Assembly: GCF_001746365.1 (NCBI RefSeq) | Contig: NZ_MJAJ01000015.1 | Coordinates: 1 to 64,000 of the forward strand | DNA: 64,000 nt | Source: Streptomyces sp. LUP30 | GTDB taxonomy: Bacteria; Actinomycetota; Actinomycetes; Streptomycetales; Streptomycetaceae | Direction of reading: 5' to 3' | In this document: positions 49,003-50,574 of the stretch, piece by piece | Layout of the letters: each line of letters starts with the position of its first letter | How positions within the stretch are numbered: the first letter of the stretch is position 1 | The notes under the pieces: model-generated | Told to the model about the DNA's origin: nothing | What the model saw: only the letters and a program-made list of their open reading frames with translations | The model's database searches: none | Position numbers and translations under genes: made by a program

Positions 49003-49030
49003 TCACGCGGGGCTGAGCAGCCCCGCGTGA
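49003..49030. terminator. Terminator using the dioxygenase's last codons
   Basis: TCACGCGGGGCT-GAGC-AGCCCCGCGTGA, perfect 12-bp stem between convergent genes. On the minus strand the same bases encode the last eight residues (HAGLLSPA) and stop codon of the dioxygenase. Confidence 0.85.
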
Positions 49031-50040
49031 TGCCGCTCGGCCACCGGCGGATGGGCGCGCAGCTTGCCCTTCAGCTCGTTGAAGCCGTACTCGGCGAACA
49101 GCGGGTTGGCCGGATCGTCGGTCACACCGGGCGCGGCCGAGGCGTAGGGGAACGGCAACGGCTCCACGCGCGCGTCCAGGCGGGGGTTGTAGAAGAACGG
49201 CACCGAGAACCGCTCCACGGCGCTCGGCGGTGACACCACCCGGTGGTTGGTGGCGACCAGGTACCCGGCGGTCGCGACCTCCAGCAGCTCGCCGAGGTTG
49301 ACCACGAACGCGCCCGGCAGCGGCGGGACGTCGTGGAACGCGCCGTCCTCCCGCTGCACCTGGAGGCCGCCCACCTCGTCCTGGAGCAGCAGCGTCAGGA
49401 ACCCGTAGTCCTTGTGTGCCCCGACCCCCTGCCCGGCGCCGTCCCCGGCGCTGCCCGGATACCGCACGAGCTTCAGGTGCGGATGCGCCCGGTCGCCGAA
49501 CACCGGGTCGTAGAAGCCGGCCGGCGCGCCGATCGCGGCGAGCAGTTCGTGCAGCAGTTTCTCGGCGACGGCGCTCAGCCGCTCGATCCAGGCGAGCGCG
49601 GCCGTGCGCAGCTCGGGCAGCCCGGCGGGCCACTGGTTGGGTCCCTGGAGCCACCAGTAGGCGGGCTCGTCCGGTCCGGGCCTCCGCGCGGGCCGCTCGG
49701 CCCCTATGTCCAGCTGGTCGCGCCAGTCCTGCCGGCCGCCGGTGCGCTCGTCGCCGGTCCGCGTGTACCCGCGGAAGTGGGGCGAGTTCACGTTGTCGAG
49801 GGCGAGCCGCCGGTCCTCGGGCAGCGCGAAGAAGGCGCGCATGGCGGACAGCAGCGCTTCCGTCTCACGCTCGCCGACCCCGTGCCCGACCAGCTGGAAG
49901 AACCCCACGTCATGGGCGGCGCTGTGCAGCTGGGCGTGGAGCAGCGCCCGTGCCTGGGGGCCGCGGTCGGCGGCGGAGAGATCGATGATCGGCAACTGCC
50001 GGTAGGACGGGTTCGTCGCGAGGGCTGTCACGTTCGTCAT
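49003..50040 (-). CDS. Isopenicillin N synthase-family Fe(II)/2-oxoglutarate-type dioxygenase
   Basis: 345 aa from ATG at 50040. N-terminal DIOX_N region LPIIDLSA...GFFQLVGHGV; the catalytic jelly roll has His-x-Asp in VGAHKDYGFLTLLLQD (about residue 210), the distal His in ATNHRVVSPP and the Arg-x-Ser substrate/2OG residues in ERFSVPFFYNP. No beta-lactam cluster genes are nearby, so true isopenicillin N synthase is unlikely. The substrate is unknown. The upstream leader with two micro-ORFs suggests attenuation-type control. Confidence 0.92.
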   Translation of the reverse strand: MTNVTALATNPSYRQLPIIDLSAADRGPQARALLHAQLHSAAHDVGFFQLVGHGVGERETEALLSAMRAFFALPEDRRLALDNVNSPHFRGYTRTGDERTGGRQDWRDQLDIGAERPARRPGPDEPAYWWLQGPNQWPAGLPELRTAALAWIERLSAVAEKLLHELLAAIGAPAGFYDPVFGDRAHPHLKLVRYPGSAGDGAGQGVGAHKDYGFLTLLLQDEVGGLQVQREDGAFHDVPPLPGAFVVNLGELLEVATAGYLVATNHRVVSPPSAVERFSVPFFYNPRLDARVEPLPFPYASAAPGVTDDPANPLFAEYGFNELKGKLRAHPPVAERHHAGLLSPA

Positions 50041-50165
50041 GGTGCGTCCGTGGGTGTACGGGGGCCCGCGGCCGGCGTCGGGTGGGACGGCGCACGGGTG
50101 CCAGGTGGGCGGAGGGAGGAAGAGCGCGTGAACGCGGGCGGCGTGAACCGCGAGGGGCCGGAGGC

Positions 50166-50240
50166 TCAGACGGAGCGTCGACAGCCCATGCTCGTGACGC
50201 GGACGTAGTCCACGTGGCGGCGTCGAACGAGCGAAAGCAT
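50166..50240 (-). CDS. RRHVD-type leader peptide upstream of the dioxygenase
   Basis: 24 codons from ATG at 50240 to TGA at 50166. It opens MLSLVRRRHVDYVRV and ends TSMGCRRSV. The VRRRHVD core followed several residues later by a Cys is the pattern of short actinobacterial leader peptides found upstream of sulfur-metabolism and transport operons, where translation of the Cys codon is thought to sense cysteine supply. It ends 125 nt before the dioxygenase ATG on the same strand. No strong ribosome site is visible. It is too short for standard gene callers. Function is inferred from the motif and position. Confidence 0.7.
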   Translation of the reverse strand: MLSLVRRRHVDYVRVTSMGCRRSV

Positions 50241-50364
50241 GCGCCCAGAGTACTGCCTGACGAAAGATCCGTACGTGGCGCGGGTCACGCGCCGCAGAAC
50301 CTGCGGGCGCGCAGTGCCGCAGAAGCCGAATTCGCCGCGGCCGGGGGCGCCGGAGAACGCAGAC

Positions 50365-50425
50365 GACCCGCGAGTCTGGTCCTCGCTCAGGAGGGCCGGC
50401 CGGACTTACCGGCGACTCGCGGGTC
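50365..50425 (-). promoter_or_regulatory. 12-bp perfect long-range inverted repeat in the dioxygenase leader
   Basis: GACCCGCGAGTC (50365-50376) and GACTCGCGGGTC (50414-50425) enclose 37 nt that can fold further (CCGGCCGG core). It lies between the micro-ORF and the RRHVD leader peptide. Candidate RNA switch, attenuator or protein-binding structure. Confidence 0.65.
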
Positions 50426-50503
50426 GGGTGACTGCTGGGTATGGGCCGGCTGCACGTGTCTCACGTACTGGTCCGGCACCGCACAGAGTGTGGTGGCGAG
50501 CCG

Positions 50504-50542
50504 CTAGCCCGCAGCCACCTCACGAGTCCGGGAATCACACAT
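50504..50542 (-). CDS. 12-codon micro-ORF with extended Shine-Dalgarno
   Basis: ATG at 50542 to TAG at 50504 encodes MCDSRTREVAAG. It follows the 15-nt ribosome-binding site by 5 nt and a good promoter. Being so short and so strongly primed for initiation, it is best seen as a regulatory upstream ORF or ribosome-loading site rather than a functional protein. Confidence 0.5.
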   Translation of the reverse strand: MCDSRTREVAAG

Positions 50543-50547
50543 CTACC

Positions 50548-50562
50548 GGATCACCTCCTTTC
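50548..50562 (-). promoter_or_regulatory. Extended Shine-Dalgarno complementary to the 16S rRNA 3' end
   Basis: The minus strand reads GAAAGGAGGTGATCC. The plus strand GGATCACCTCCTTTC is the 3'-terminal sequence of 16S rRNA, so pairing could extend over 15 bases. Ordinary sites in this window pair over 4-7. Confidence 0.8.
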
Positions 50563-50574
50563 GCGTGTACTGGA

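Follow-up and report, generated by a model that had tools for sequence, protein, structure and literature searches.

Cysteine leaders of mycobacteria are described as leaderless in PMC9031893, and as translation attenuators in PMC13236596. In Streptomyces, a leaderless arrangement has been reported for several mapped leader peptides of S. lividans (PMC8079986); the table of Streptomyces leaders in the same paper holds no cysteine leader with an RRHVD motif, and the paper does not speak of conservation in the residues that surround the regulatory codons. The window analysed here – a stretch of 64,000 nucleotides from Streptomyces sp. LUP30 – carries a short ORF with this motif ahead of an oxygenase gene:

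50166..50240, minus strand: ORF of the leader peptide, MLSLVRRRHVDYVRVTSMGCRRSV, 24 codons plus TGA (ATG at 50240, TGA at 50168-50166)
49003..50040, minus strand: downstream gene, start ATG at 50040, product of 345 aa in the 2OG-Fe(II) oxygenase superfamily ('isopenicillin N synthase family')

Both lie on the minus strand, with 125 nt between the leader stop and the oxygenase ATG. The 24-codon ORF is exactly where the original prediction had placed it (minus strand, 50240-50166), and its motif is kept upstream of the orthologous oxygenase. A longer, GTG-started frame of 40 aa was dropped because the residues N-terminal to MLSLV vary among orthologs.

Conservation was assessed in a close set of 80 orthologous loci from public genomes, extended by 30 more through whole-genome searches. 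At 110 Streptomyces loci of this set the motif LV[RK]RRHVDxxRVT[ST]xxC stands upstream of the orthologous oxygenase; the sole close-set locus lacking the leader (L109) has almost no upstream sequence. A recognisable leader also precedes most orthologs of 66-85% identity. In a more distant set, where the oxygenases are about 57-85% identical, 32 of 40 regions contain recognisable versions (for example, MTVLLVKRRHVDHMRVTTTSC and MPTLVRRRHVDFVRVTSMSC), two of which, beside 57-58% homologs, point the opposite way. No leader was found at 17 examined loci with oxygenase homologs of 41-57% identity from other genera, nor, in the distant regions examined, at several 70%-identical Streptomyces paralogs of the oxygenase.

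Synonymous bias at the codon level, on which the original prediction had staked the reality of the peptide, is evident. Across 48 distinct cores of 51 nt the mean pairwise difference at codon positions 1, 2 and 3 is 0.017, 0.051 and 0.169, respectively; the DNA flanking the leader has diverged beyond alignment (mean pairwise difference 0.61-0.66). Codons 2-10 show synonymous variation around fixed residues, which argues for selection on the peptide. Codons 11-17 (CGC GTC ACG AGC ATG GGC TGT) are near-frozen, even at silent sites, and this points to the RNA or the particular codons as a further target of selection. Judged by this pattern of variation, the small ORF is real and conserved and its coding is under selection; we infer that it is translated. 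Leader and oxygenase, moreover, stay together while the upstream neighbors change by species (PAS/GNAT genes with the Ms_IGR-5 RNA, TetR/enoyl-CoA hydratase, and others), so that the linkage is to the oxygenase and not to the genes upstream.

In the window an RNA gene lies upstream of the leader:

50358-50568, minus strand: gene for the Ms_IGR-5 sRNA (Rfam RF02471, 100.8 bits)

This RNA is found in 80 of 81 Streptomyces genomes, apparently as a single copy per genome, and its position relative to leader and oxygenase changes between species. The idea that it forms one unit with the leader was rejected: depending on the species it is found upstream, or on the other strand, or several kb off, or is missing from the interval. 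Its 5' part (50548-50568, minus strand) contains GAAAGGAGGTGATCC, which looks like the full complement of the 16S rRNA 3' end. A conserved block, GTGAGGTGGCTGC, follows and can be read as a short frame beginning VRWL (ORF 50461-50538). Identity with the RNA-polymerase-binding Ms1 RNA was also considered and could not be confirmed; the paper searched makes no mention of IGR-5, and the Ms1 papers place Ms1 between SCO3558 and SCO3559.

The peptide contains the framework R-R-H-V-D-x-x-R ending in S/T-x-x-C and lies, as do members of the cis_reg_atten family, a short distance upstream of its gene and on the same strand. It matches two NCBIfam models, both below their cut-offs: NF042936, leader_Ms4527A (E 3e-6, 26.6 bits, cut-off 45) and NF042934, cis_reg_atten (E 7.5e-4, 19.1 bits, under the 27-bit cut-off). 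In the profile search proposed for it, the source peptide itself thus stays under the cut-offs and an orthologous one passes: the leader at L147, ahead of a 75%-identical ortholog, reaches 42.6 bits against 27 on the cis_reg_atten model. Other dioxygenase-linked leaders score 14-22 bits on the same model, and existing leader models miss a subfamily of RRHVD leaders. In the source genome nine other places reach the cis_reg_atten cut-off and one more falls just below it. The genes that follow these sibling leaders include those for CysM with a ThiS/MoaD-like protein, an NtaA/DmoA-type monooxygenase, a cysteine dioxygenase, a nitrite/sulfite reductase, an SsuE-type FMN reductase, a rhodanese-type sulfurtransferase and a cystine-type ABC permease. 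The resemblance to actinobacterial sulfur-gene leaders on which the original prediction was built is borne out by the two matches, by the L147 leader and by these siblings. The family was found in all 41 Streptomyces and in 44 of the 66 genera that were sampled from the class, and in none of the 14 control genomes.

One sibling deserves separate mention. At L164 a family leader precedes a cysteine dioxygenase, which consumes cysteine, together with a rhodanese; induction by a shortage of cysteine would make little sense there. With a leadered cysteine dioxygenase in the same genome, the rule that low cysteine switches genes on need not hold for every member, and the RRHVD family may not always exert control in the same direction.

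The gene downstream was originally described as an IPNS-type oxygenase. Its Pfam matches are DIOX_N and 2OG-FeII_Oxy, and sequence and alignment give a metal-ligand motif H209-x-D211...H266 (HKD...H) and a 2OG-binding R277-x-S279 (RFS). Kinship with IPNS did not stand: the best PDB matches, and with them the nearest structures, are other 2OG/Fe(II) oxygenases, namely 2OG-dependent enzymes of the ethylene/succinate-forming type and 'iron/ascorbate' oxidoreductases, and IPNS is absent among the 49 PDB matches listed. By these comparisons 'IPNS-type' is a family label only. The neighborhoods of homologs give some indication of function. Two oxygenases of 57-58% identity (L154 and L155) lie divergently beside a metY-metX operon (methionine sulfhydrylation), and that operon has its own leader of the same subfamily, MTVLVTRRHVDYVRVTTTGC or nearly so. 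One 70%-identical oxygenase sits between a homocysteine S-methyltransferase (MmuM-like) and an SfnB/DszC-like sulfur acquisition oxidoreductase. These neighbors point to a likely sulfur-related role for the oxygenase.

How the leader is transcribed is suggested by two elements upstream of its start codon:

50247..50252, minus strand: predicted -10 box, TACTCT, 6 nt before the ATG; the A of the ATG is the predicted start (+1)
50275..50288, minus strand: Crp-type site, GTGACCCGCGCCAC (consensus GTGN6GNCAC), centered at -41.5 from the predicted start

A TANNNT box is found 6-7 nt before the ATG at 95 of 96 distinct loci (6 nt at 85, 7 nt at 10), compared with 2% in shuffled sequences. With this spacing transcription should begin at the first letter of the start codon, and the transcript is accordingly predicted to be leaderless. 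GTGN6GNCAC is present at 63 of the 96 loci, in 52 of them centered at -41 (shuffles 0.8%). A center at -41.5 is the classical position for an activating CRP dimer. Binding of Crp at the candidate site may be supposed from this geometry, and an input of Crp to the leader promoter is likely. PMC10033298 quotes GTGN6GNCAC as the strong consensus for Crp in S. coelicolor.

The codon at which such a leader would sense its signal is itself unusual:

50181..50183, minus strand: conserved Cys codon, TGT, the proposed stall or sensing codon

It is TGT in 48 of 48 distinct close cores and in 34 of 34 distant leaders. The Cys at the fixed position is likewise encoded by TGT in all 51 distinct other leaders of the family examined (L251-L309 and L162-L171), which come from many genera and several families and precede unrelated genes. 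Background usage of TGT in ordinary genes is 12-13%, and the other Cys codons inside the same 51 leaders comprise 56 TGC and 16 TGT (56/72 TGC). Local pairing contexts differ among the leaders, and hence the codon itself seems to be under selection. A limited search of the literature found no paper on the subject of the invariant TGT codon.

The RNA around this codon is constrained as well:

50182..50187, minus strand: 5' arm, GGGCTG, of a terminator-like hairpin, overlapping the Gly-Cys codons of the Met-Gly-Cys stretch
50155..50160, minus strand: 3' arm, CGGCCC, of the same hairpin, beyond the stop codon and outside the ORF
50190..50232, minus strand: possible hairpin inside the leader ORF, GCTCGT (50232-50227) with ACGAGC (50195-50190) in the predicted fold
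50041..50062, minus strand: conserved pre-start element of the oxygenase, CCCGTACACCCACGGACGCACC, with a weak GGA-type ribosome-binding site

A 3' arm C[AG]GC[CT][CT], able to pair with GGGCTG, is present at 85 of 96 loci (shuffles 11.7%). T content in the 12 nt after this arm is 34%, against 12% in the remaining gap, and the segment folds better than shuffled sequences (z about -2.0). The pyrimidine tail is weak in the source genome (CTCGCGG) and T-rich in many relatives, where the hairpin looks like an intrinsic terminator. Distant orthologs (the L113 group) have other hairpins after the stop and no U-tract; together with the weak tract here, this indicates that canonical intrinsic termination is not general. 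The stop codon falls inside the hairpin and the Cys codon in its 5' arm, an arrangement in which the arm would be masked as long as a ribosome pauses on UGU. The hairpin inside the ORF showed no excess stability over the same peptide encoded by random synonymous codons (distant set; z +0.28), although the synonymous pair V2/T14 changes together (GTC-ACG in 8 of 8 cases, GTG-ACC in 9 of 10) in a sample that is small and composed of related sequences.

We consider the best explanation to be that a leaderless, translated cysteine leader controls the oxygenase by ribosome-mediated attenuation, and give this a probability of about 0.7. RNA polymerase would begin with the A of the leader's start codon, probably aided by a Crp-type activator at -41.5, and a ribosome would initiate directly at the 5' end of the transcript. 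With ample cysteinyl-tRNA the ribosome would pass the single UGU, finish and leave; the hairpin whose 5' arm is GGGCUG, from the Gly-Cys codons, could then form and either end transcription or block access to the oxygenase start. Under cysteine shortage the ribosome would stall on UGU and cover the 5' arm, the oxygenase would be expressed and, presumably, would free sulfur from an organic compound. A single Cys codon, as against the polycysteine leaders of mycobacteria, counts against an attenuator. Control by cysteine or sulfur, as originally proposed, is nonetheless the best reading of the likeness to the family, the sibling leaders and the neighbors of oxygenase homologs.

A possible though clearly less probable alternative keeps the leader and the signal and moves control to translation: the stalled ribosome would open a pairing that hides the ribosome-binding site of the oxygenase, and the hairpin at the Cys codon would be no terminator. 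The conserved pre-start element with its weak GGA-type site fits such a scheme, as do the duplexes between leader and pre-start region, which are somewhat better than shuffles (mean z -1.05), and the distant orthologs devoid of U-tracts; translational control is also what has been proposed for the mycobacterial polycysteine leaders (PMC13236596). When the leader was blocked at the Cys codon in a model, however, accessibility of the start region was not raised (mean unpaired 0.45 free, 0.41 stalled), and the T-rich tail directly after the hairpin at the Cys codon is a requirement of a terminator.

It is also conceivable, if rather unlikely, that the product is an arrest peptide, in which the nascent RRHVDxxR together with UGU stalls the ribosome and sensing is by the peptide sequence and not only by a hungry Cys codon. 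Ahead of the Cys the residues stay fixed and their codons change, and RRHVDxxR turns up again in leaders from unrelated genera and before unrelated genes; for simple attenuation by a hungry codon, fixed residues upstream would be superfluous. The motif could, however, serve otherwise, for instance by making the nascent chain slow or ordered and so tuning the timing. As a guess, UGU may be read slowly by wobble with tRNA-Cys(GCA), perhaps in a manner sensitive to charging or modification. A broader and speculative proposal, which we regard as doubtful at about one chance in four, is that the RRHVD family senses sulfur by a double signal, namely the nascent chain RRHVDxxR and the wobble-read UGU, with the oxygenase leader as one member of a genome-wide set, tied to an oxygenase that scavenges sulfur. 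If this is true, stalling could depend on how well tRNA-Cys reads U (for example, on its charging or a sulfur-dependent modification), and not merely on the presence of Cys at the codon.

That the ORF encodes a functional small protein, or the precursor of a modified peptide that is the substrate of the oxygenase, and is no cis regulator, is very improbable: a conserved peptide does adjoin a 2OG-Fe(II) oxygenase, but the same motif stands before many unrelated sulfur genes, the examined homologs of the oxygenase from other genera, 41-57% identical, have no leader, and the RNA itself is constrained at the Cys codon and beyond the stop. An ORF that arose by chance, with only promoter or RNA conserved, could be entertained from the source genome alone, where the HMM match is below cut-off (E 0.06 genome-wide), and has a negligible probability given the codon pattern that already contradicts it – third-position bias, fixed residues, and a start and -10 geometry fixed in 95 of 96 loci.

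Attenuation by a cysteine leader would link an oxygenase common in Streptomyces to sulfur supply, which offers a handle for the search for its substrate (organosulfur compounds, sulfate limitation). The invariant UGU, combined with upstream positions that are fixed in residue and free in codon, poses a testable question: is the sensor a counting of cysteine, or is the state of nascent peptide and tRNA-Cys part of it?

Among known systems, the Streptomyces attenuators of the leuL, trpL and ilvL type (PMC8079986) share with this locus a short leader ORF, often on a leaderless transcript, with hairpins after it; they differ in sensing the amino acid that the controlled gene makes or uses. Ms4527A and the mycobacterial leader ORFs with polycysteine on leaderless transcripts, as described in PMC9031893 and PMC13236596, have in common with it a predicted leaderless mRNA, a Cys-containing peptide and a setting in cysteine metabolism. 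There, a run of Cys and a structure that masks the ribosome-binding site are described, whereas the source leader has one Cys codon, TGT, and a terminator-like hairpin at that codon. NF042934 cis_reg_atten, the actinobacterial 'putative leader peptide' (RRHVDLxRxxSxxC), has the same framework R-R-H-V-D-x-x-R-x-x-[ST]-x-x-C, the same TGT Cys codon and a short ORF shortly before the gene, in a family with sulfur genes downstream. The oxygenase-linked subfamily departs from it in having Y, F or H for L after the Asp, RVT[ST], and a 2OG-Fe(II) oxygenase as target. The leader described here is, on these comparisons, probably a member of the known actinobacterial class of cysteine leaders with a new target gene.
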